From: an uncultured Chitinophaga sp.
GTDB taxonomy: Bacteria > Bacteroidota > Bacteroidia > Cytophagales > Cyclobacteriaceae
DNA: 64,000 bases
Direction: 5' to 3'
Assembly: GCA_902168205.1 (NCBI GenBank)
Contig: CABHOK010000018.1
Location: 62,001 to 126,000 of the forward strand
The notes beneath the pieces were generated by a model. It had not been told where the DNA came from, searched no databases, and saw nothing but the letters and a program-made list of their open reading frames with translations. The position numbers and the translations under genes are program-made. This document shows positions 48,686 through 62,611 of this stretch, piece by piece (position 1 is the stretch's first letter; each line of letters opens with the position of its first letter).

Positions 48686-51151
48686 ATGATCAAGTATTAT
48701 CTTCTCCTTTTTGTCCGGAACATCAAACGTCAGAGATTATTTTCTGCCATTAACTTATTAGGTCTTACTGCCGGTATCGTTAGTACTCTGCTAATATACC
48801 TGTATGTAGATCGTGAATTCAGCTACGATCGCTTCCATGGAAACGCAGAGAATATATACCGCATCAACCAGACATTTATCTGGGGCGAGAATGATAACAA
48901 CCAGTTTGCTTCCCTTGGCCCTGGTGTAGCCTATGCTATAAAAACAGATATACCCGAAGCAACGGAAGTGACGCGCGTACAACCTCCCGGAGATTTTCTG
49001 GTAACGAACGCTGAAGATAAAAACAACATACGTGCATTCGATGAATCCAATATACTCGCAGTTGATTCCAACTTCTTCGAGGTATTTACTTTCCCATTGG
49101 TAAAGGGTGATATAAAAACGGCTTTACAAAAACCACACTCCGCTATACTTACGGAGTCGACAGCAAAGAAATATTTCGGATCGAAAGAACCTATAGGAAA
49201 GTTGCTGCAATTCGGTGAAGACAGTGTAACCGAAACATATGAAGTTACCGCGATCGTGAGAGATGTTCCCGATAACTCTTATATCGAATTTGATATACTG
49301 GTGTCGATGAGCAGCTTTCCCCGCATCATGCAATCCAACGATCTTTGGCTTTGGACAACTTTCGAAACGTTTGTCTTATTGGACAAGCAAGCTTCCGTAC
49401 CGGCATTCGAAGCGAAATTGCAGACATTGCCACGCAAGTATGCGGAAGGAACGTTGCAGCGCATCATGAATCAGTCGTTTGATGACTATATCAAAAGCGG
49501 AAAAAAATGGGATCTTTTTGCTCAACCGCTTACTTCTATCCGCCTTCATTCAACCAATGTATATAACCGCCTGAACAATGTAGGCAATGCTAACACAGTA
49601 TATATATTGATGGGCGTTGAGGTGCTTATCATCTTACTCTCGTGTATCAATTTCATGAATCTTTCTACAGCACAGTATACACGCAGAATAAAAGAATCCA
49701 GTCTGCGCAAGATCATGGGCTCTGATAAAATTCAACTAGCATTGCATTTCTTTTCGGAAGCCTTTATGTTTTGCTGTCTCGCAGCATTAATCGGATTAGG
49801 ACTGGTGCAGTTACTGCTGCCGTTCTTCAACGTGCTTACGGAAAGTCAACTTTCATTGAACCTGTTGCAGCATCCGGATATACTATGGGTGTTGTTGGGA
49901 TTGATTGTAGTGATGAGTTTATTATCCGGGAGTTACCCCGCTATATTTCTCAGCAAGTTCTCTCCGGTAGAAGCGATGAAAGGAAAATTGAGAACCGGTA
50001 AACAAGGTAAGACTTTGCGTAACGGTCTGGTAACTTTTCAATTTGTTATTTCGATGGTGTTGATTGTTTGTACCATCGTTGTGTTTCAGCAACTGCGATT
50101 TTTAGGACAAAAAGATATAGGCTTCGATCGCGAAAATCTGATGATAGTAAACCGCGTGGAGTGGATTAATGATGCGGAGAACTTTGTTCATGCGCTTGAA
50201 AATATACCGGGTGTTGAAAAAGCATCGTGGTGCAGCGGGGTGCCACCGTATCTTGCCGATGGCGATCAGTTCAGCGGTGAAGACTCCGGTGGAAAAATCA
50301 CACCGCTAAACTATATCAAAGCAGACGAGCACTACGCAGCCACCTTAAGTATCAATCTGAAGGTAGGACGTAACTTTTCCAAAGATATACCGGGTGACAA
50401 AGATCGAATCATTCTCAATGAAACAGCCGTAAATGCATTGGGCTGGAACGTAGATGAAAGCGTATTGGGTAAAAAGGTAGATTACCCGGGCCGCGGTCGC
50501 TATGAAGTAATTGGTGTTGTAAAAGATTTCCACTACTGGTCAATCAATCAACCTATACAGCCGATGGCAATCTTCCATATCAAGAACGATATATTTACCA
50601 TTGGAAAGAAGTATGCTGTATTGCGTGTTACTCCGGGCAGTGAAGAGTCGTTGACAAAATTGATTGCTTCTGTACAAAAGAATTGGCAATTACATGCTGG
50701 CAATCACCCGTTTCAGTATGATTTTGTTGATGATTCTTTCGAGCGCAATTTCCGTTCACAGGAAAAATTCGGACAGGCGCTTACTGTCTTCTCAGCGCTT
50801 GCCATTATGATAGCTTGCTTCGGTTTACTCGGTATGATTATATATACTTTGGAACAACGCACGAAAGAGATCGGAATCCGTAAAGTAGTAGGCGCATCGG
50901 TATGGAATATATGGATGCTGGTAGTGAAAGATTATACATTACTGATAATGGCCGCTATTGCTCTGAGTACACCATTATGTATATGGGGACTCAACAGCTG
51001 GCTCGAAGCGTTTCAATATAGGGTACCGATTTCTCCATGGGCATTTATTATAGCCGGAGGAAGTATACTCGCCACAGCATGGACTATAACAAGTTATCAC
51101 GTAATTAAAGCAGCACTAACGAATCCCGTAACAGTCTTAAAAGACGAATAA
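48686..51151 (+). CDS. MacB/FtsX-type ABC transporter permease (second of a tandem pair)
   Basis: An 821-residue paralogue of the preceding gene, colinear throughout: both begin M(L/I)KYYLLLF(F/V)R, share SFDDYIKSGKKW, FMNLSTAQYTRRI(R/K)ESSLRKI and KEIGIRKVVGAS, and end NPVTVLKDE. It should sit in the inner membrane with two large periplasmic domains and need a separate ATPase. The most diverged stretch is the second periplasmic domain (about 480-650), the likely substrate-contact part. A good terminator follows, so the tandem pair is a closed unit ending before the ilv leader. Confidence 0.9.
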   Translation: MIKYYLLLFVRNIKRQRLFSAINLLGLTAGIVSTLLIYLYVDREFSYDRFHGNAENIYRINQTFIWGENDNNQFASLGPGVAYAIKTDIPEATEVTRVQPPGDFLVTNAEDKNNIRAFDESNILAVDSNFFEVFTFPLVKGDIKTALQKPHSAILTESTAKKYFGSKEPIGKLLQFGEDSVTETYEVTAIVRDVPDNSYIEFDILVSMSSFPRIMQSNDLWLWTTFETFVLLDKQASVPAFEAKLQTLPRKYAEGTLQRIMNQSFDDYIKSGKKWDLFAQPLTSIRLHSTNVYNRLNNVGNANTVYILMGVEVLIILLSCINFMNLSTAQYTRRIKESSLRKIMGSDKIQLALHFFSEAFMFCCLAALIGLGLVQLLLPFFNVLTESQLSLNLLQHPDILWVLLGLIVVMSLLSGSYPAIFLSKFSPVEAMKGKLRTGKQGKTLRNGLVTFQFVISMVLIVCTIVVFQQLRFLGQKDIGFDRENLMIVNRVEWINDAENFVHALENIPGVEKASWCSGVPPYLADGDQFSGEDSGGKITPLNYIKADEHYAATLSINLKVGRNFSKDIPGDKDRIILNETAVNALGWNVDESVLGKKVDYPGRGRYEVIGVVKDFHYWSINQPIQPMAIFHIKNDIFTIGKKYAVLRVTPGSEESLTKLIASVQKNWQLHAGNHPFQYDFVDDSFERNFRSQEKFGQALTVFSALAIMIACFGLLGMIIYTLEQRTKEIGIRKVVGASVWNIWMLVVKDYTLLIMAAIALSTPLCIWGLNSWLEAFQYRVPISPWAFIIAGGSILATAWTITSYHVIKAALTNPVTVLKDE

Positions 51152-51170
51152 CATATTTCGATATATAGGG

Positions 51171-51200
51171 AGGCCAGCACATAAAATGTGTTGGCCTTTT
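51171..51200 (+). terminator. terminator after the tandem permease genes
   Basis: A 12-bp stem with one G-U pair (51171-51182 with 51186-51197), a 3-nt loop AAA, then TTTT. It is 20 bp after the stop codon at 51151. Confidence 0.7.
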
Positions 51201-51393
51201 ATCTGCGTCTATCTGTGAGATCTGTGGGCCAAAAAGACACAGAATCTACCGTCATCATCCCCCGAAATTCAAACTTTACGAACGCCTGTAAGTAGTAGCT
51301 AACATTCGTTTTTAGCGAAATTTTCAAATATTTTTCTCATTTCACTTGAATCGTAATTGATTATTTGTGACAATTGTACTCGCACAGAATTTT

Positions 51394-51516
51394 ATGATGA
51401 ACAATCACCAAATCACCGAACGCTTGTTAAACTCTACGGAGTTGAACAGACTTTCTGTGCTTGTAATTATTGTCAGCATTCTACTTGTCAAACCCGCGGG
51501 GGCGATAGTGGTATAA
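51394..51516 (+). CDS. ilv operon leader peptide (attenuation), 40 residues
   Basis: An ATG at 51394 (second ATG at 51397) opens a 40-codon frame ending with TAA at 51514-51516. The peptide has 7 Leu, 6 Val and 5 Ile, nearly half branched-chain residues, with a dense block LSVLVIIVSILLV (residues 20-32) and a second IVV at the end. It precedes a perfect terminator hairpin and the first ilv gene. This is the classical design of the ilv leader: ribosome stalling at Leu/Val/Ile codons when charged tRNA is scarce would decide between terminator and antiterminator. It has the composition of the enterobacterial IlvL peptide but is not aligned to it. The call rests on position, composition and the hairpin; expression is not shown. 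Confidence 0.8.
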   Translation: MMNNHQITERLLNSTELNRLSVLVIIVSILLVKPAGAIVV

Positions 51517-51570
51517 TTTTTTAATAAAAAAATCACAAACCGCCCCGATAGCCTCGGGGCGGTTTTGTTT
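51498..51570 (+). promoter_or_regulatory. ilv attenuator: terminator hairpin with competing antiterminator
   Basis: The terminator is a perfect 12-bp stem (51537-51548 with 51554-51565), loop TAGCC, followed by TTTTGTTTT; it lies 36 bp before the ilvE start. Its 5' arm contains CGCCCC (51541-51546), which can instead pair with GGGGCG at 51499-51504 in the last codons of the leader ORF. A ribosome reaching the leader stop would mask 51499-51504 and allow termination. A ribosome stalled at the upstream Leu/Val/Ile block would leave it free to form the antiterminator. Confidence 0.75.
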
Positions 51571-51603
51571 TATATAAAAAACTACAAACTAACAGTTGTA
51601 AAT

Positions 51604-52491
51604 ATGTACTACACGAAAGACACGATCTTATTCCTGAATGGCAAGTTCATAAAGGCTGTTGATGCGCATACGGATTTGTATAGTCAATCGCTTCACTATG
51701 GATTTGGTGCATTCGAAGGGATCCGTGCCTATCAAACCATGAATGGTGTAAAGATCTTCAAAGCGTATGAACACTTTGAACGTCTGAAGAAAAGTTGTGC
51801 GTTAGTTGGAATACCATTCCACTACGAAACCGAAGAACTCATCCAGATAGCATATCAGTTACTGGAGAAGAATGATATGAGTGATGCCTATATCAGACCG
51901 TTGGTATACTGCGGACCCAACATGCAGCTTACACATACCGATGAAGTTTACCTGATGATGTGTACCTGGGAGTGGGATAAATATCATGGTGAGAAACAAC
52001 TGAAGATGTGTGTTTCATCCTACCAGCGCCCCAACCCGAACTCACTCAAGATGGAAGCAAAAGTTACCGGTCATTATGTAAACTCAATCCTGGCAACAAG
52101 CGAAGCAAAAGTTAGAGGCTATGATGAAGCACTGATGCTCGATATGAATGGCTTTGTTGCTGAAGCACCCGGAGCAAATTTTTTCATGGAGAAAGATGGA
52201 GTGTTATATACTCCTTCACTCGGACATATACTTCCGGGTATAACACGTCAAACAGTAATTAACATTTGCCGTGAGTTAGATATACCGGTGAAAGAAAAAC
52301 AAATCAAAGTAGAAGAACTCGAAACTGCAGACAGCGCATTTTTGTGTGGCACCGCTGCTGAAATAGCAGGCATTGAATCGATCGATGCAAAGCCATTCAA
52401 AAAAGAATGGTTTGATAGTCTGGGTGCTACCGTGCAGGAAGCCTATAAATGTCAGGTACTCGAGAAATCATTTAGTTACGTTATCATCTAA
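51604..52491 (+). CDS. ilvE: branched-chain amino acid aminotransferase
   Basis: A 295-residue fold-type IV aminotransferase. The start at 51604 (MYYTKDTILFLNGKFIKA) matches the family; an upstream TTG lies inside the attenuator hairpin. Landmarks: LHYGFGAFEGIRAYQT, the cofactor Lys in VTGHYVNSILATSEAK, DEALMLDMNGFVAEAPGANFFM and GITRQTVINICRELDIPV, FLCGTAAEIAGI. It carries out the last step of Leu, Ile and Val synthesis and the first step of breakdown. It is the first structural gene behind the attenuator, so the whole downstream set is likely under that control. Confidence 0.9.
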   Translation: MYYTKDTILFLNGKFIKAVDAHTDLYSQSLHYGFGAFEGIRAYQTMNGVKIFKAYEHFERLKKSCALVGIPFHYETEELIQIAYQLLEKNDMSDAYIRPLVYCGPNMQLTHTDEVYLMMCTWEWDKYHGEKQLKMCVSSYQRPNPNSLKMEAKVTGHYVNSILATSEAKVRGYDEALMLDMNGFVAEAPGANFFMEKDGVLYTPSLGHILPGITRQTVINICRELDIPVKEKQIKVEELETADSAFLCGTAAEIAGIESIDAKPFKKEWFDSLGATVQEAYKCQVLEKSFSYVII

Positions 52492-52642: not shown

Positions 52643-54328
52643 GTGAGTAAAGAACTTAACAAGTACAGCAAGACCTTAACGCAAGATCCAACCTTGCCTG
52701 CTGCCCAAGCCATGTTATACGGAATCGGCCTTACCGATGAAGACATGCAAAAAGCACAGGTCGGTATAGTCAGTACAGGGTATGATGGCAACACCTGCAA
52801 CATGCACCTGAACAAACTTGCACAGGATGTAAAAACGGCTGTATGGAATAACGAACTCGTTGGCTTGATCTTCAACACCATTGGTGTAAGCGATGGTATG
52901 AGTAATGGTACGGAAGGTATGCGTTACTCACTCGTGAGTCGCGAGATTATCGCTGACTCTATCGAAGCTGTATGTGGTGCTCAATACTACGATGGATTGA
53001 TTGCTGTAGTAGGTTGCGATAAAAATATGCCCGGAGCGTTGATCGCCATGGGAAGATTGAATCGTCCTGCCATCATGGTATATGGTGGTACCATCGCTGG
53101 TGGAGACTGGAAAGGGCAAGAGCTCAACATCATCTCTGCGTTCGAAGCATTAGGACAGAAGATGGCCGGTAAACTTTCACCGGAAGATTTCAAAGGTATA
53201 GTTAAGAATTCATGTCCGGGTGCCGGTGCGTGTGGTGGTATGTATACTGCTAACACCATGGCTTCCGCTATAGAAGCACTCGGTATGTCATTGCCGTACT
53301 CATCATCAAACCCTGCTACCAGCAAGGACAAGATCGATGAATGTATAGCATCCGGTAAAGCTATACACAATCTGCTTGCACTGGATCTGAAGCCGCGCGA
53401 CATCATGACGTTCAAAGCATTTGAAAATGCAATTACCGTAGTGATGGCGTTGGGTGGATCGACCAATGCAGTACTTCACCTCATCGCGATGGCGAAGTCT
53501 GTAGATGTAAAGATTACACAGGAAGATTTCCAGCGTATATCAGATAAAACTCCATTAATCGCTGACTTCAAACCAAGTGGTAAATATCTGATGGAGGCAC
53601 TGCACAAGATTGGTGGTGTTCCTTCGGTGATGAAGTATTTATTGGAGAAAGGATTTTTACATGGCGACTGTATAACCGTAACTGGTAAAACACTTGCTGA
53701 AAATGTGAAAGATGCTCCGTCACTTGACTTCGCGAAGCAGGATGTTATACACCCGATCGAAACTCCGCTCAAGCCTACAGCACACTTGCAGATACTCTAT
53801 GGTAATCTTGCCGAGAAAGGTTCTGTAGCAAAGATCACCGGTAAAGAAGGCGAACGATTCAAAGGACCAGCAAGAGTATTCAACGGCGAGTTCGAACTCG
53901 TGGCCGGCATACAAAGCGGTCGTGTGAAAGAAGGCGATGTAGTTGTGATACGCTATGTAGGACCGAAAGGTGCACCGGGTATGCCGGAGATGTTGAAGCC
54001 AACATCGGCTATCATGGGAGCAGGTCTCGGTAAATCTGTAGCCATGATTACAGACGGACGTTTCTCCGGAGGTTCACACGGATTTGTAATTGGCCACATT
54101 ACACCCGAAGGATACGAGGGAGGATTGATCGCTCTTGTAGAAGAAAATGATCTCATCGAAATAGACATACAGAAACATACCATTAACCTGTTGGTGGATG
54201 AGAAGACGATAGCCCAGCGTAGAGCAGCCTGGAAAAAACCAGGACTGAATGCTAAGAACGGAATTTTATTGAAGTATGCTAAACAAGTAAAAACTGCTGC
54301 TGATGGATGCGTTACTGACGAAGACTAA
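52643..54328 (+). CDS. ilvD: dihydroxy-acid dehydratase
   Basis: A 561-residue Fe-S dehydratase, starting at GTG. The three cluster Cys are Cys52 (NTCNMH), Cys125 (VGCDKNMPG) and Cys197 ([12 protein letters not shown]). The C-terminal domain has [20 protein letters not shown]. It converts 2,3-dihydroxy acids to 2-keto acids in valine and isoleucine synthesis. Its 3' end overlaps the ilvB start by 26 bp, so the two are translated from one message. Confidence 0.95.
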
Positions 54329-56057
54329 ACCTGCTGCCGAAAAAGGAATTCAGGAAAAGAAAAAGATTACTGGTTCAGAAGTCTTATTGAATTCTCTTGT
54401 CGCAGAAGGAGTCGATATAATTTTTGGATACCCGGGCGGAGCGATCATGCCGGTATACGATGCGTTGTACGGCTATGCCGACAAACTCAATCATATACTG
54501 GTTCGTCATGAGCAGGGCGCTATACATGCAGCACAAGGCTATGCCCGCGTATCGGGAAGAACAGGGGTTGTATTTGCAACGTCCGGGCCAGGCGCCACAA
54601 ACCTGGTAACAGGTCTTGCAGACGCAGCGATCGATTCAACACCATTGGTATGTATCACCGGTCAGGTATTTGCACACCTGTTGGGAACAGATGCTTTCCA
54701 GGAAACCGATGTGATAAACACAACCCTGCCGGTAACAAAATGGAATGTACAGGTTGCTGAAGCTAAAGATATAGCACCTGCTGTTGCCAAAGCATTCTAT
54801 ATCGCAAAAACCGGTCGTCCGGGACCTGTGCTCATCGATATCACGAAGAATGCACAGAACGAATTGATCGAAGAAGTTGAGTATAAAAAATGCGATCACA
54901 TCCGTACCTATAAACCGAAGCCGGTTCTTCAACCTTTACAAGTTGAAAAGGCTGCTGAGTTGATCAACGGAGCGAAACGTCCCTATATATTGGCCGGACA
55001 AGGTATATTGTTGTCAGGTGCTACGAAAGAGTTGATCGCATTTTCCGAGAAGACGGGTATACCAGTAGCCTGTACGTTGCTTGGTCTGGGAGCATTCCCG
55101 ACTGACCATCCAAACTATGTAGGTTATCTCGGCATGCATGGTAATTATGGTCCGAATATCAATACCAATGAGTGCGATGTACTCATCGGCATCGGTATGC
55201 GTTTTGACGATCGTGTAACTGGCAACGTAAGTAAATATGCTACCCAAGCCAAAGTAGTACACATCGATATCGATAAAGCAGAGATCAACAAGATCATCAA
55301 GACAGAAGCCTTTATCCATGCCGATGCAAAAGAAGCATTGGAAGCACTCATACAGAAATGTAATGCAGGCAAACACACCGAGTGGGTTGACAGCTTCCAC
55401 AAGCTTAATGACATCGAGTATAATAAAGTCATACACCGTGAATGTAATCCTACAGAGAAAATCACGATGGGTGAAGTGATCTATAATCTTTCGAACTTAT
55501 CGAAAGGTGAAGCGATCGTTGTTACTGATGTAGGACAGCATCAAATGGTAACATCGCGTTACTATAAATATAAGAATCCTAGAACCAACGTAACATCAGG
55601 TGGCGCAGGTACCATGGGCTTTGCATTACCGGCAGCATTGGGCGCTAAACTTGCAAAACCTCAAAACCAGGTTATTGCAGTTATAGGTGATGGCGGATAT
55701 CAGATGACGGTTCAGGAATTAGGAACGATCATGCAGTATGAAATACCGGTAAAGATAATGGTGTTGAATAACAGCTTTCTCGGCATGGTACGCCAGTGGC
55801 AGCAGCTGTTCCACGGCAAGCGTTACTCGTTTACCGAGATGACAAACCCTGACTTCATTAAACTGGCGGGTGCGTACAACATCAAGGCGCGTAAGGTTGA
55901 AGTTCGTGATGATCTGAATGAAGCACTGCAGGAAATGCTTGACTCGAAAACTTCATACTTCCTCGAAGTAGTAGTAGGTAAAGAAGACAACGTATTCCCG
56001 ATGGTACCCGCAGGTGCAGGAGTATCGGATGTACTATTGGAAGCACCTCCTTGCTAA
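54303..56057 (+). CDS. ilvB: acetolactate synthase large subunit
   Basis: A 584-residue ThDP enzyme. The N-terminal domain has [15 protein letters not shown] and the conserved Glu in [14 protein letters not shown]; the central domain has the FAD-related [16 protein letters not shown]; the C-terminal domain has [18 protein letters not shown] with the metal-binding [12 protein letters not shown]. It condenses pyruvate with pyruvate or 2-oxobutanoate. It needs the small subunit gene that follows 72 bp later. Translation probably starts at the ATG at 54303, inside the ilvD frame. Confidence 0.95.
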
Positions 56058-56485: not shown

Positions 56486-57556
56486 ATGGCAAAGATTAAT
56501 TTCGGCGGAACCATAGAAGAAGTAGTAACTCGCGAAGAGTTCCCAATGGAAAAAGCTCTGGACGTAATGAAGAATGAAACCATTGCAATCATTGGATACG
56601 GTGTACAAGGTCCTGCACAGGCTCTTAACCTTCGTGACAATGGTTTTAAAGTAATCATTGGTCAGCGTAAAGGATCAAAGACCTGGGATAAAGCAGTTGA
56701 ACACGGATGGGTTCCTGGCGAAACATTGTTCGAGATTGAAGAAGCAGCAAAAAAAGGAACCGTTATTCAATTCCTTCTTTCAGATGCTGGTCAGATCGAA
56801 CTGTGGCCTACTATTAAGCCCTATATCACAAAAGGAAAGACCCTATATTTCTCTCACGGCTTCGGTATAACTTTCAAAGATCAGACAAACATTATTCCTT
56901 CTGCTGATGTAGATGTAATTCTGGCTGCTCCAAAAGGATCCGGTACATCGGTACGCAGATTGTTCCTGCAAGGTAAAGGTATCAACGCCAGCTACGCTGT
57001 ATTCCAGGATGCAACCGGCAATGCTAAAACAAAAGCTATAGCATTGGGTATCGGTGTAGGTGCAGGTTACTTGTTTGAGACAGACTTCAGAAAAGAAGTA
57101 TACTCTGATCTTACCGGTGAGCGCGGAACATTGATGGGTGCTATCGCAGGTATATTCGAAGCTCAATACGAAGTGCTGCGTTCAAAAGGTCACACACCTT
57201 CAGAAGCATTCAACGAAACCGTTGAAGAATTAACACAGTCACTCATGCCACTGGTTGCTGAGAACGGTATGGACTGGATGTACGCTAACTGTTCTACAAC
57301 AGCACAGCGTGGCGCGCTTGACTGGAAGAAGAAATTCAAGGCTGCTACACTTCCTGTGTTCAAAGAACTTTACGAAAGCGTAGAGTCAGGTGCTGAAGCA
57401 AAACGTACGATCGATACTTGCAGCAAGCCTGACTACCGCGAGAAACTCGCAGAAGAATTGAAAGAACTTCGCGAAAGCGAACTGTGGCAAGCCGGTGCTG
57501 CCGTACGCAAACTGCGTCCGGAGAAGCAGCAGGTTGAAGCCAGCATGATAAACTAA
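56486..57556 (+). CDS. ilvC: ketol-acid reductoisomerase (class I)
   Basis: A 356-residue enzyme. The N-terminal Rossmann domain has GYGVQGPAQALNLRDNGFKVIIGQRKGSKTWDKA; the basic residues after the second strand suggest NADPH. The C-terminal knotted domain has YSDLTGERGTLMGAIAGIFEAQYEVL with the magnesium-binding Asp and Glu. It isomerises and reduces acetolactate and acetohydroxybutyrate. Its Rossmann start MAKINFGGTIEEVV is the usual Bacteroidota form. A strong hairpin follows in the gap to ilvA. Confidence 0.95.
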   Translation: MAKINFGGTIEEVVTREEFPMEKALDVMKNETIAIIGYGVQGPAQALNLRDNGFKVIIGQRKGSKTWDKAVEHGWVPGETLFEIEEAAKKGTVIQFLLSDAGQIELWPTIKPYITKGKTLYFSHGFGITFKDQTNIIPSADVDVILAAPKGSGTSVRRLFLQGKGINASYAVFQDATGNAKTKAIALGIGVGAGYLFETDFRKEVYSDLTGERGTLMGAIAGIFEAQYEVLRSKGHTPSEAFNETVEELTQSLMPLVAENGMDWMYANCSTTAQRGALDWKKKFKAATLPVFKELYESVESGAEAKRTIDTCSKPDYREKLAEELKELRESELWQAGAAVRKLRPEKQQVEASMIN

Positions 57557-57603: not shown

Positions 57604-57619
57604 AGCTTTGAAGATCACT

Positions 57620-58873
57620 ATGTCAACAACAACACAAACATATACCCTGAATGTCAACGCAGCCGCGGAAGTATTAAAATCCGTAGTGCTGAAAACACCG
57701 TTGCAGTACCATCGCAAGCTTTCTGAAAAATTCAAGGCAGAGATTTACGTAAAACGTGAAGACCTGCAGGTAGTGCGCTCTTATAAATTGCGAGGTGCCT
57801 ATAATTTGATTCAAAGCTTAACGGAAGAACAACGTAAACGTGGTGTAGTTTGTGCCAGTGCCGGGAACCATGCGCAAGGTGTAGCGTTCTCGTGCAAACA
57901 TCTGGATATAAAAGGTGTGATCTATATGCCGGCCATTACGCCCAAGCAGAAGATTAACCAGGTAAAAATGTTCGGTGGCGATAACATCGAGATTGTACTC
58001 ACGGGTGATACATTTGACGAATGCCAGGCGCATGCGTTAGAGTTTACACAGAAGAACAACATGGTGTTCATTCCGCCATTCGATCATGTGAAAGTGATTG
58101 AAGGACAAGGAACCGTTGCCAAAGAAATACTCGATGAAGTATCCGGTATAGATTACGTCTTCGTACCTATCGGTGGAGGTGGATTGTGTGCCGGCCTGGG
58201 TGAATACTTCAGAACATATTCTCCTCAAACAAAAATTATAGGTGTAGAGCCAACCGGTGCGCCTTCTATGAAGGAAGCACTGAAAGAAGGTAAACCTGTA
58301 AAACTTGAAAAGATACAACGCTTCGTAGATGGAGCATCTGTACAACGTGTAGGTGACTTAACATTTTCATTCTGCAAAGAAATACTGGCTGACATGCTGC
58401 TGGTGCCGGAAGGAAAAGTGAGCTCTACTATACTTCAGCTCTATAACCAGGATGCTATTGTAGCAGAACCTGCCGGAGCGCTTTCAATTGCTGCACTGGA
58501 TCAGTATGCAGAACAGATCAAAGGTAAAAAAGTTGTGTGTATACTCAGCGGTGGTAACAACGACATCGATCGCATGCAGGAGATCAAAGAACGATCACTG
58601 CTATACGAAGGACTAAAACATTATTTCATCGTGCGCTTTGCACAGCGCCCTGGTGCACTGAAAGAATTTGTGAACCAGATACTCGGTCCCACCGATGATA
58701 TTGTTCGCTTCGAATTCATTCAAAAACATAACAAAGAAACAGGTCCGGCATTGATCGGTATTGAAGTGAAATCAACCGAAGACTTCAAATCATTGATCGA
58801 GCGCATGGATAGTCACAAGCTGAATTATACGCTTGTGAATCAGAACGAAAACCTGTTCGAATATTTAGTGTAG
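57620..58873 (+). CDS. ilvA: threonine ammonia-lyase (threonine dehydratase)
   Basis: A 417-residue PLP enzyme starting at ATG 57620; the TTG at 57608 is less likely. The catalytic Lys56 is in RSYKLRGAYN, followed by the substrate-binding CASAGNHAQGVAFSC and the PLP phosphate loop PIGGGGLCAGL. The C-terminal about 80 residues (HYFIVRFAQRPGALKEFVNQIL) form one ACT-like regulatory domain, shorter than the two in the E. coli enzyme. It makes 2-oxobutanoate from threonine for isoleucine synthesis. A clear terminator follows. Confidence 0.92.
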   Translation: MSTTTQTYTLNVNAAAEVLKSVVLKTPLQYHRKLSEKFKAEIYVKREDLQVVRSYKLRGAYNLIQSLTEEQRKRGVVCASAGNHAQGVAFSCKHLDIKGVIYMPAITPKQKINQVKMFGGDNIEIVLTGDTFDECQAHALEFTQKNNMVFIPPFDHVKVIEGQGTVAKEILDEVSGIDYVFVPIGGGGLCAGLGEYFRTYSPQTKIIGVEPTGAPSMKEALKEGKPVKLEKIQRFVDGASVQRVGDLTFSFCKEILADMLLVPEGKVSSTILQLYNQDAIVAEPAGALSIAALDQYAEQIKGKKVVCILSGGNNDIDRMQEIKERSLLYEGLKHYFIVRFAQRPGALKEFVNQILGPTDDIVRFEFIQKHNKETGPALIGIEVKSTEDFKSLIERMDSHKLNYTLVNQNENLFEYLV

Positions 58874-60937: not shown

Positions 60938-61087
60938 TTTTGTTAAATATTTTTTAACAATTCGTTGATGTACCCCTTAACTTTTTCCATCTTCGTGTTT
61001 CAGGAGCCCCTCTGTGTAGAAAAGATTTTTTAAATGATCAAATCATCTGAAAGTGATGTTTTGAAATAAAGTATAAAGCATTCGTAT

Positions 61088-61129
61088 CGTCCCGTCTGAG
61101 CATTGCCCAGACGGGACGTTTCGTTTTTT
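61088..61129 (+). terminator. terminator between the helicase gene and leuC
   Basis: A perfect 11-bp stem (61088-61098 with 61108-61118), 9-nt loop, then TTTCGTTTTTT. It is 150 bp after the helicase stop codon and 76 bp before the leuC ATG. It could terminate the helicase message; no competing antiterminator was found upstream, so a leu attenuator is not supported. Confidence 0.8.
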
Positions 61130-61204
61130 AGGGATCAGGACAAACTAACACTTGTTCTATTCCGAGTTATAAACAGTAAAATAAATTAAGACTTAAACTG
61201 AGAC

Positions 61205-62611
61205 ATGAGTCAACCGAAAACACTGTTCGACAAAATCTGGGATGCACATGTGGTGAAGAAAAGTGAAGGGTACCCGGATGTAGTGTACATCGACCGTCAC
61301 TTCATTCACGAAGTAACCAGCCCGCAAGCTTTTGATGGATTACGCAAACGTGGCATCAAAGTTTTTAATCCGGCCCGTACAACGGCTACACCGGATCACA
61401 ACGTACCAACCAAAGATCAGCACCTTCCGATCAAGGAAGCACTCTCTCGCCACCAGGTAGAAACACTTCGAAAAAATACAGCCGAGTTTGGCGTAACACT
61501 TTACGATCTTGGACATCCATTCCAGGGAATCGTTCACATCATTGGTCCGGAGTTGGGATTAACCTTGCCGGGCATGACCATCGTATGTGGTGATAGTCAT
61601 ACATCTACACACGGTGCTTTTGGAAGTATAGCATTTGGTATAGGTACCAGCGAAGTAGAGCAGGTGCTGGCTACACAATGTATACTGCAGTATCGTCCGA
61701 AGACCATGCGCATCGAGATCAACGGTAAGCTTGGTAAAGGCGTAGTATCAAAAGATATTATCCTATATATCATTTCTAAAATTTCTGCGAGTGGTGCCAC
61801 CGGATTCTTTGTTGAGTATGCCGGTGAAGCAATTCGTAATCTCTCCATGGAGGCGCGTATGACCATCTGTAACATGAGCATCGAAATGGGTGCACGTGGT
61901 GGTTTGATTGCTCCGGATGAGACAACGTTCAATTATATCAAAGGAAGAAAGTTCGCACCACAGGGAGCAGAGTTTGATAAACTTGTTGAGAAGTGGAGTG
62001 CATTGAAAACAGACGAAGGTGCTAAATACGATCAGGTATTAACCTATGATGCTGCAGATATAGCACCGATGATTACCTACGGAACCAATCCGGGTATGGG
62101 TATAAAGGTTACAGACCGTATCCCTACCGTTGCAGAACTCAGCGACATCAGCGAACAAAATTCATTTACAAAGTCATTGGAGTATATGGGCCTTGAACAA
62201 GGTTCACAACTTCTTGGTAAATCAGTTGACTATGTGTTCATCGGAAGCTGTACCAATGCGCGCATTGAAGACTTAAGACTTGTTGCTTCCATCGTGAAAG
62301 GCAAGAAGAAAGCAGAAGGCGTTGAAGTATGGGTAGTGCCTGGTTCAAAACAAGTAGAAGAGCAGGCGCGCAAAGAAGGTCTGCACAAAATATTTGAAGA
62401 AGCAGGTTTTGAATTACGCGAACCCGGATGTTCAGCTTGCCTTGGTATGAACGAAGATAAAATTCCTGCCGGCAAATATTGCATCAGTACATCGAACCGA
62501 AACTTCGAAGGGAGACAAGGACCGAAGTCCAGAACATTCCTGGCAAGTCCGCTAAGTGCAGCCGCTGCGGCTATAACAGGAAAAGTGACAGACGTACGCG
62601 AACTGGTATAA
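61205..62611 (+). CDS. leuC: 3-isopropylmalate dehydratase large subunit
   Basis: A 468-residue aconitase-type Fe-S enzyme. The cluster Cys are Cys349 ([12 protein letters not shown]), Cys409 and Cys412 ([10 protein letters not shown]). Other landmarks are [26 protein letters not shown] and the closing [20 protein letters not shown]. It isomerises 2- to 3-isopropylmalate in leucine synthesis together with LeuD, whose gene follows 39 bp later. leuA is not seen in the window. Confidence 0.95.

Follow-up and report, generated by a model that had tools for sequence, protein, structure and literature searches.

Leader-peptide attenuators control the ilv, leu, his and trp operons of enterobacteria. 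The locus described here resembles them in having a frame rich in the regulated residues, a strand that competes for the 5' arm of the terminator, and a terminator placed before the first gene. A study by Vitreschak in 2004 is said to have named attenuators in the phylum Bacteroidota as well.

Passages of PMC9723704 report strong clues for leader-peptide attenuation ahead of amino-acid operons in Flavobacterium psychrophilum, and a passage of PMC7366714 mentions short leader-like frames in B. thetaiotaomicron. The excerpts of PMC4833913 and PMC8305728 hold no ilv leaders of this phylum, and a worked-out ilv leader from Bacteroidota is not among the literature matches listed. A first-pass annotation of the DNA had remarked that few such leaders have been worked out in the phylum; this is fair, the literature giving hints and no worked-out ilv case.

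Results

The ilv leader lies in a 64-kb stretch of DNA, analysed as a whole and referred to below as the window. It belongs to a genome of 7.3 Mb whose closest titled relatives are Ohtaekwangia, Chryseolinea and other Cytophagales. Features of the locus are collected in Table 1. The leader starts at an ATG at 51394, with a second ATG at 51397, and stops at a TAA at 51514-51516; it encodes the peptide MMNNHQITERLLNSTELNRLSVLVIIVSILLVKPAGAIVV. Direct reading bears out the 18 Leu, Val or Ile residues among 40 codons that the first-pass annotation had counted, and its placement of GGGGCG at 51499-51504, in the last leader codons, is accurate. The same is true of the gap of 20 bases from the leader stop to the 12-bp stem (51537-51565). 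The distance from stem to ilvE, given as 36, amounts to 38 bases when counted to the ilvE ATG. As for the terminator with a T tract, the stem stands and the tract is broken up, reading TGTTTTAT.

Table 1. Coordinates of the ilv leader, its candidate control signals and the downstream genes in the window.
Feature	Positions	Strand	Basis or remark
Hairpin GGCCAGCACAT-AAA-ATGTGTTGGCC then TTTTAT, likely terminator of upstream gene	51172..51196	+	read by eye in sequence
CTAACATTCGTTTT, upstream copy of operator-like palindrome CTAAC-N4-GTTAG (putative)	51299..51312	.	conserved in relatives
Putative promoter: TTG (51346-51348), 21 bases, ACAATTG (51370-51376)	51346..51376	+	layout shared by relatives
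GCACAGAA, 5' strand pairing with TTCTGTGC at 51453-51460, encloses leader start	51382..51389	+	folding
Leader-peptide frame, 40 codons plus TAA	51394..51516	+	sequence read, conservation, coding selection
Regulatory codons LSVLVIIVSILLV	51451..51489	+	I/L/V kept at leader residues 19-32
Antiterminator 5' strand: GGGGCG (51499-51504) and GTGGT (51508-51512)	51499..51512	+	folding, pairing tests
Antiterminator 3' strand: ATCAC (51532-51536) and CGCCCC (51541-51546), overlaps terminator 5' arm	51532..51546	+	folding
Intrinsic terminator: 12-bp stem, loop TAGCC, T-rich tail	51537..51573	+	terminator scan, folding
Element ACAAACTAACAGTTGT next to ilvE start	51584..51599	.	genome search
ilvE, branched-chain aminotransferase (Aminotran_4)	51604..52491	+	
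ilvD, dihydroxy-acid dehydratase	52643..54328	+	
ilvB, acetolactate synthase large subunit	54303..56057	+	TPP enzyme domains; name from position and family
ilvN-like small subunit, ACT domain, 97 aa	56130..56423	+	
ilvC, ketol-acid reductoisomerase	56486..57556	+	
ilvA, threonine dehydratase	57620..58873	+	frame opens at 57608

Folding of the full leader is 4.1 sd more stable than that of its dinucleotide shuffles, none of 200 shuffles equalling it. Across the window, 3 of 61 terminator-like sites on the + strand and 0 of 48 on the - strand follow a short frame with at least 8 I/L/V in 12 residues; one of these three + strand sites reaches 10 in 12, and the ilv leader scores 10. Upstream, the preceding gene (48686-51151) is followed by a hairpin of its own with T's, noted by eye and absent from the computed terminator list, which suggests that the ilv genes probably form a separate unit. 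Within the gene set itself, the acetolactate synthase small-subunit-like protein is short, and its Pfam matches are to the ACT domain only.

The conserved short frame that the first-pass annotation had proposed to look for in relatives is present: an I/L/V-rich frame (at least 8 in 12 residues) with a terminator precedes ilvE in all 25 of the titled relatives' loci L025-L049. The leaders of L026-L049 were additionally checked by eye, and several of the 25 loci come from genomes already represented in another set of relatives' loci. The peptide ends vary by clade (KPAGAIVI, RKPG, QPAGW), with the G-rich strand kept in each as judged by eye. In an alignment of 14 leaders, whose rows are related so that gap and codon counts are not independent events, all 19 gap runs inside the frame are of 3 bases and all 61 after it are of 1-2 bases, and 478 of 514 pairwise changes in I/L/V codons at leader residues 19-32 remain I/L/V; the branched-chain codons are thus conserved, as had been expected of an attenuator. 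By codon position, the differences amount to 0.40, 0.28 and 0.47. In the same alignment, I, L and V make up 43% of the residues in the leader frame as against 14% and 11% in the two other frames. By these measures the leader frame is evolving as a coding sequence, and its conservation in relatives settles the reality of the leader-terminator arrangement.

The arrangement was surveyed more widely with ilvD as the anchor. The order sample comprised 194 genomes, 124 of them with an ilvD match, from which 100 loci were taken roughly down the list and hence non-randomly. In 50 of these 100 loci, the 3 kb ahead of ilvD contain an I/L/V-rich frame with a terminator, as against 6 on the reverse strand; since the reverse-strand and shuffle controls are nonzero, some of these 50, though only a few, are due to chance. 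Counted by terminator, such a frame precedes 56 of 354 on the forward strand and 6 of 331 reverse-strand ones; three shuffle controls gave 8 of 262, 2 of 250 and 4 of 236. For the phylum, 47 of 118 genomes match ilvD, and 28 of 30 loci were analysed, two of the same order being excluded. The layout is found within about 1.5 kb of ilvD in 15 of these 28 loci outside the order (reverse strand, 1 of 28), of which at least L225 looks like a chance match, its stop overlapping the stem. At the threshold of at least 8 I/L/V in 12, the remaining 50 loci of the order and the remaining 13 of the phylum yielded no such leader. Tandem leader-terminator units were seen ahead of ilv in L015, L016, L022, L069, L071, L085 and L162 (threshold of at least 7 in 12), and further ones before ilv genes in the phylum loci L220 and L226.

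Folding indicates two competing structures. A transcript ending at 51552 adopts the antiterminator, in which GGGGCG...GUGGU pairs with AUCAC...CGCCCC, and the full-length leader transcript folds as the terminator. The ability of GGGGCG to pair with CGCCCC in the terminator 5' arm, claimed at the outset, is thus reproduced by the truncated transcript. Among 101 leader-terminator pairs of the order, the duplex between each leader's tail and its own arm averages -16.1 versus -10.8 kcal/mol for permuted pairs (sd 0.31), the lowest of 2000 permutations being -11.7. Ten of the 101 pairs were removed by eye as chance before the 36-genus test and the permutation test of the 5' stem described below. 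The former used one locus per genus and took genus-labelled loci only, with L026-L050 outside it; in its 36 pairs, own arms average -17.2 versus -11.5 kcal/mol for the arms of other genera (sd 0.51), with -13.7 as the lowest value in 10,000 permutations. The own arm is best or tied in 11 of the 36 rows and within the top tenth in 25. The median position of the pairing strand relative to the leader stop, -5.5 to +9 in the 36 genera, is mild evidence, since the searched tail was itself centred near the stop.

Closer to the window, variation is scarce. GGGGCG/CGCCCC is nearly invariant in the nearest clade, where a single cell is broken. The outer helix is paired in 85% of cells with one both-side change, a result matched by 209 of 500 shuffles. 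Given this invariance and a single both-side change that does no better than shuffles, the clade is uninformative on covariation. Compensatory changes in the terminator were counted in the sister clade only, not in the window's own clade: both-side changes occur there at 3 of 11 pairs, a number reached by 49 of 500 shuffles, and the covariation score is reached by none of 500. For the compensatory changes that the first-pass annotation had called for, support comes from the comparison across genera of the order; inside the nearest clade they are not shown. A competing pairing left unconserved in relatives had been named as evidence against attenuation; within the clade this pairing is kept, and the duplex energies support its covariation across genera of the order.

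In 21 of 25 loci, the leader start is preceded by a promoter-like layout of the form TTG-N-A..TTG, a loose fit to a pattern derived from these same sequences. Four of the 25 lack it; the match in L046, which sits downstream of the leader, was not counted. Transcription is predicted to begin at about 51381-51384. A start downstream of 51394 had been put forward as an argument against the leader; the putative promoter, resting on a pattern drawn from the loci themselves, would place the start upstream in those 21 loci.

The segment 51382-51470 folds with z = -3.3. Pair counts gave no covariation for the stem 51382-51389/51453-51460, and its permutation test showed no excess over the whole set (own -7.4 versus permuted -7.5), permutations being as good in 483 of 2000 and 120 of 2000 cases for two near clades and in 1998 of 2000 for the rest. 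The by-eye impression that GCACAG/CTGTGC forms a covarying pause hairpin was dropped for want of support from pair counts and permutations. The stem is thereby reduced to a conserved complementarity and a possible pause hairpin.

Besides the leader, the locus shares sequence elements with leu. The element ACAAACTAACNNTTGT, at 51584-51599 and 61140-61155, sits directly 3' of the ilv terminator and the leu terminator, respectively. Allowing one mismatch, the sole other genome match of ACAAACTAACRRTTGT is at 61140-61155, after the terminator preceding leuC, and CAAACTAACNNTTGT has only two matches in the window's genome, directly after the ilv and leu terminators. CAAACTAACNNTTGT is matched in 16 of 59 relatives and unmatched in 43; nine of the 16 (seven of the genus, G021 and G030) have it exactly twice, at ilv and leu, and each of the remaining seven has one match, which by eye seems unrelated. 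In the genomes of L049, L042, L044, L030, L031, L035, L037 and L046, the element is at ilv and leu in 7 of 8, G235 having it at ilv only; G230 carries two extra matches at other places. G020, G022, G036, G039, G050 and G058 have ilv-type leaders and no match to the element. A role of the element before ilvE as a promoter was considered and dropped by eye, the spacing being wrong and leu having no upstream TTG.

An operator-like palindrome accompanies the element. CTAACATT[CT]GT is found at a similar upstream place in 23 of 25 ilv loci (it is missing in L039 and L046). The best CTAAC-N4-GTTAG sites upstream of the ilv promoter have 1-3 mismatches in 24 of 24 loci (L043 excluded), with a mean of 2.3 versus 4.3 in base shuffles, and those upstream of leu have a mean of 2.5 versus 4.2 in 16 loci, L206 having none; the comparison is partly circular, since the pattern was drawn from the tested sequences. 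In 5 of the 24 ilv loci (the window, L026, L027, L032 and L033) the best-matching site is found at a different position. Over the whole genome, the palindrome has 20 matches within one mismatch, at 17 places, versus 80 for the reversed pattern. A TetR-family gene (L255:1627-2217, in the region L255:1501-2241, G000:C17:101254-101994) is flanked on each side by a CTAAC-N4-GTTAG-like site in 7 of 7 genus genomes, with one mismatch and once two. In the window's genome, the only one in which this was observed, the gene adjoins the phenylacetate gene paaA.

Two related sites were noted in passing. CTAACTTTCGTTAG, an exact match to CTAACNNTYGTTAG, occurs in 4 of 7 genus genomes (L240:1501; G001, G005, G006), where a nearby frame reads ESAKARGTGIAKRSP. 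At L252:1501, CTAACATTCGTTTG differs by one base from the window's ilv upstream site; an acyl-CoA dehydrogenase frame follows, with its first ATG 58 bases further on.

Ahead of leuC, the region 60955-61205 combines a conserved block with a leader about 100 bases long and a terminator at 61088-61118; the sequence of this terminator varies from relative to relative, and its hairpin, as judged by eye, is maintained. Neither a Leu-rich frame common to the 16 leu loci nor an antiterminator could be detected before leuC. In the seven loci with the correct terminator, the best preceding frame has only 3-5 I/L/V in 12; in the other nine, the terminator is visible by eye and was missed or misplaced by the automatic search. 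Over the 260 bases preceding the element, the stop-to-stop stretches of the 16 loci attain maxima of 5-8 I/L/V and 2-5 Leu in 12, and the peptides differ. Of eight leu loci, none has the ilv promoter pattern at the conserved block: six are unmatched and two are matched elsewhere.

Discussion

We interpret the locus as a ribosome-mediated transcription attenuator of ilvEDBNCA that would sense charged Leu, Val and Ile tRNA, with a probability of about 0.9. Attenuation is supported because the leader is under coding selection, all parts are conserved, the pairing covaries across genera and the unit stands before ilv genes; the conserved frame, the conserved codons and the covarying pairing uphold the leader-peptide reading first proposed for this DNA. 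The attenuator would presumably control the entire set from ilvE to ilvA.

The start site, translation of the leader in the cell, stalling and the response to amino acids are inferred, and the mechanism may be pictured as follows. Transcription would begin just upstream of the leader frame. With amino acids plentiful, the ribosome would arrive at the stop at 51514 and cover GGGGCG, the terminator would form and transcription would end; a ribosome ending there should have a footprint spanning about 51496-51528, hiding GGGGCG. When Leu, Val or Ile is scarce, the ribosome would stall in the codons at about 51451-51480 and leave GGGGCG free. The freed GGGGCG and GTGGT would then pair with ATCAC and CGCCCC, no terminator would form and RNA polymerase would enter ilvE. 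A stall at the last three leader codons, which are also I/V, would not relieve termination. The mechanism requires coupling of ribosome and polymerase, of which the literature searched offered no demonstration for this phylum.

Other explanations of the conserved terminator fare less well. Its control by a small-molecule riboswitch of a known family or by a T-box would suit a structured 5' leader with a terminator, and is very improbable in view of the Rfam results: no family reaches its gathering score in the leader, the sole family in the window that does being a tRNA elsewhere, and loose limits brought up 25 weak and mixed matches, of which that with the lowest E-value (0.0086) is to the Pseudomonas rnk leader, at 27.6 bits versus 55. 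The T-box is absent from strict and loose matches alike. Phe_leader (22.9 bits versus 55) and His_leader (18.3 versus 49) are also below their gathering cut-offs. We give as little credence to a small hydrophobic, possibly membrane, protein with its own terminator, independent of ilv control. The block LSVLVIIVSILLV is indeed as hydrophobic as a membrane segment; however, I, L and V interchange freely in it, the remaining peptide is very different between loci, and both the position before ilv and the pairing of the frame's end with the terminator are preserved.

A trans-acting protein that binds ACAAACTAACNNTTGT or its upstream partner, chiefly regulating the terminator and making the leader peptide secondary, is somewhat more probable and still unlikely. 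Such a protein would account for an element that comes after the terminator at both ilv and leu, for the failure to detect a shared I/L/V-rich frame before the leu terminator, and for the related palindrome around the TetR-family gene in all seven genus genomes. It is at odds with the strong selection on leader frame, codons and antiterminator, and with the lack of the element in the six leader-bearing genomes named above and in 43 of 59 relatives altogether. It is possible that a second regulator acts at ilv besides the leader. Tentatively, and with odds clearly against it, one may imagine a double lock in this clade: the ilv promoter and attenuator would be flanked by two palindromic operators to which a repressor, possibly the TetR-family protein, would bind, and the same operator pair and a terminator would control leu without a detected leader peptide, so that acyl-CoA breakdown and amino-acid supply would be weighed together.

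Attenuation of the ilv operon by its leader peptide would provide a clean, conserved example of ribosome-mediated control of branched-chain synthesis in Bacteroidota. Bacteria of this phylum make little use of Shine-Dalgarno sequences, and attenuation in them would imply a ribosome near enough behind RNA polymerase. A passage of PMC9723704 also mentions the absence of Shine-Dalgarno sequences. The many divergent leaders are ready-made reporters with which coupling in the phylum could be tested. Two leads emerge besides, the tandem leaders and the element that ilv and leu share; neither is described among the literature matches listed, from searches that were not aimed at the element itself.

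Set beside the enterobacterial attenuators, the leader has no clear protector hairpin, and the strand forming its antiterminator falls within the last codons or around the stop. The proposal for F. psychrophilum (PMC9723704) concerns the same phylum, the same proposed mechanism and likewise operons for amino-acid biosynthesis; it differs in that the organism belongs to the Flavobacteriaceae and in that the main text mentions no ilv gene, the string 'ilv' being absent from it. The Bacteroid-trp motif (RF01692), listed in a table of PMC2864571, is also a candidate structured RNA of Bacteroidetes, but its name refers to trp, another amino acid, and it has no match in the window. Among ilv operons, Corynebacterium ilvBNC is likewise under leader attenuation according to excerpts of PMC11857589 and PMC10272879; it belongs to another phylum, and the title of PMC11857589 carries a three-hairpin model. 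The tandem attenuators of Salmonella mgtCBR, as outlined in part of PMC3641672, have two short frames per leader and so recall the tandem leaders of the relatives, in an operon that does not serve amino-acid biosynthesis. Leader-peptide attenuation has thus already been suggested in this phylum, and the ilv leader described here is a new and well-supported case of it.
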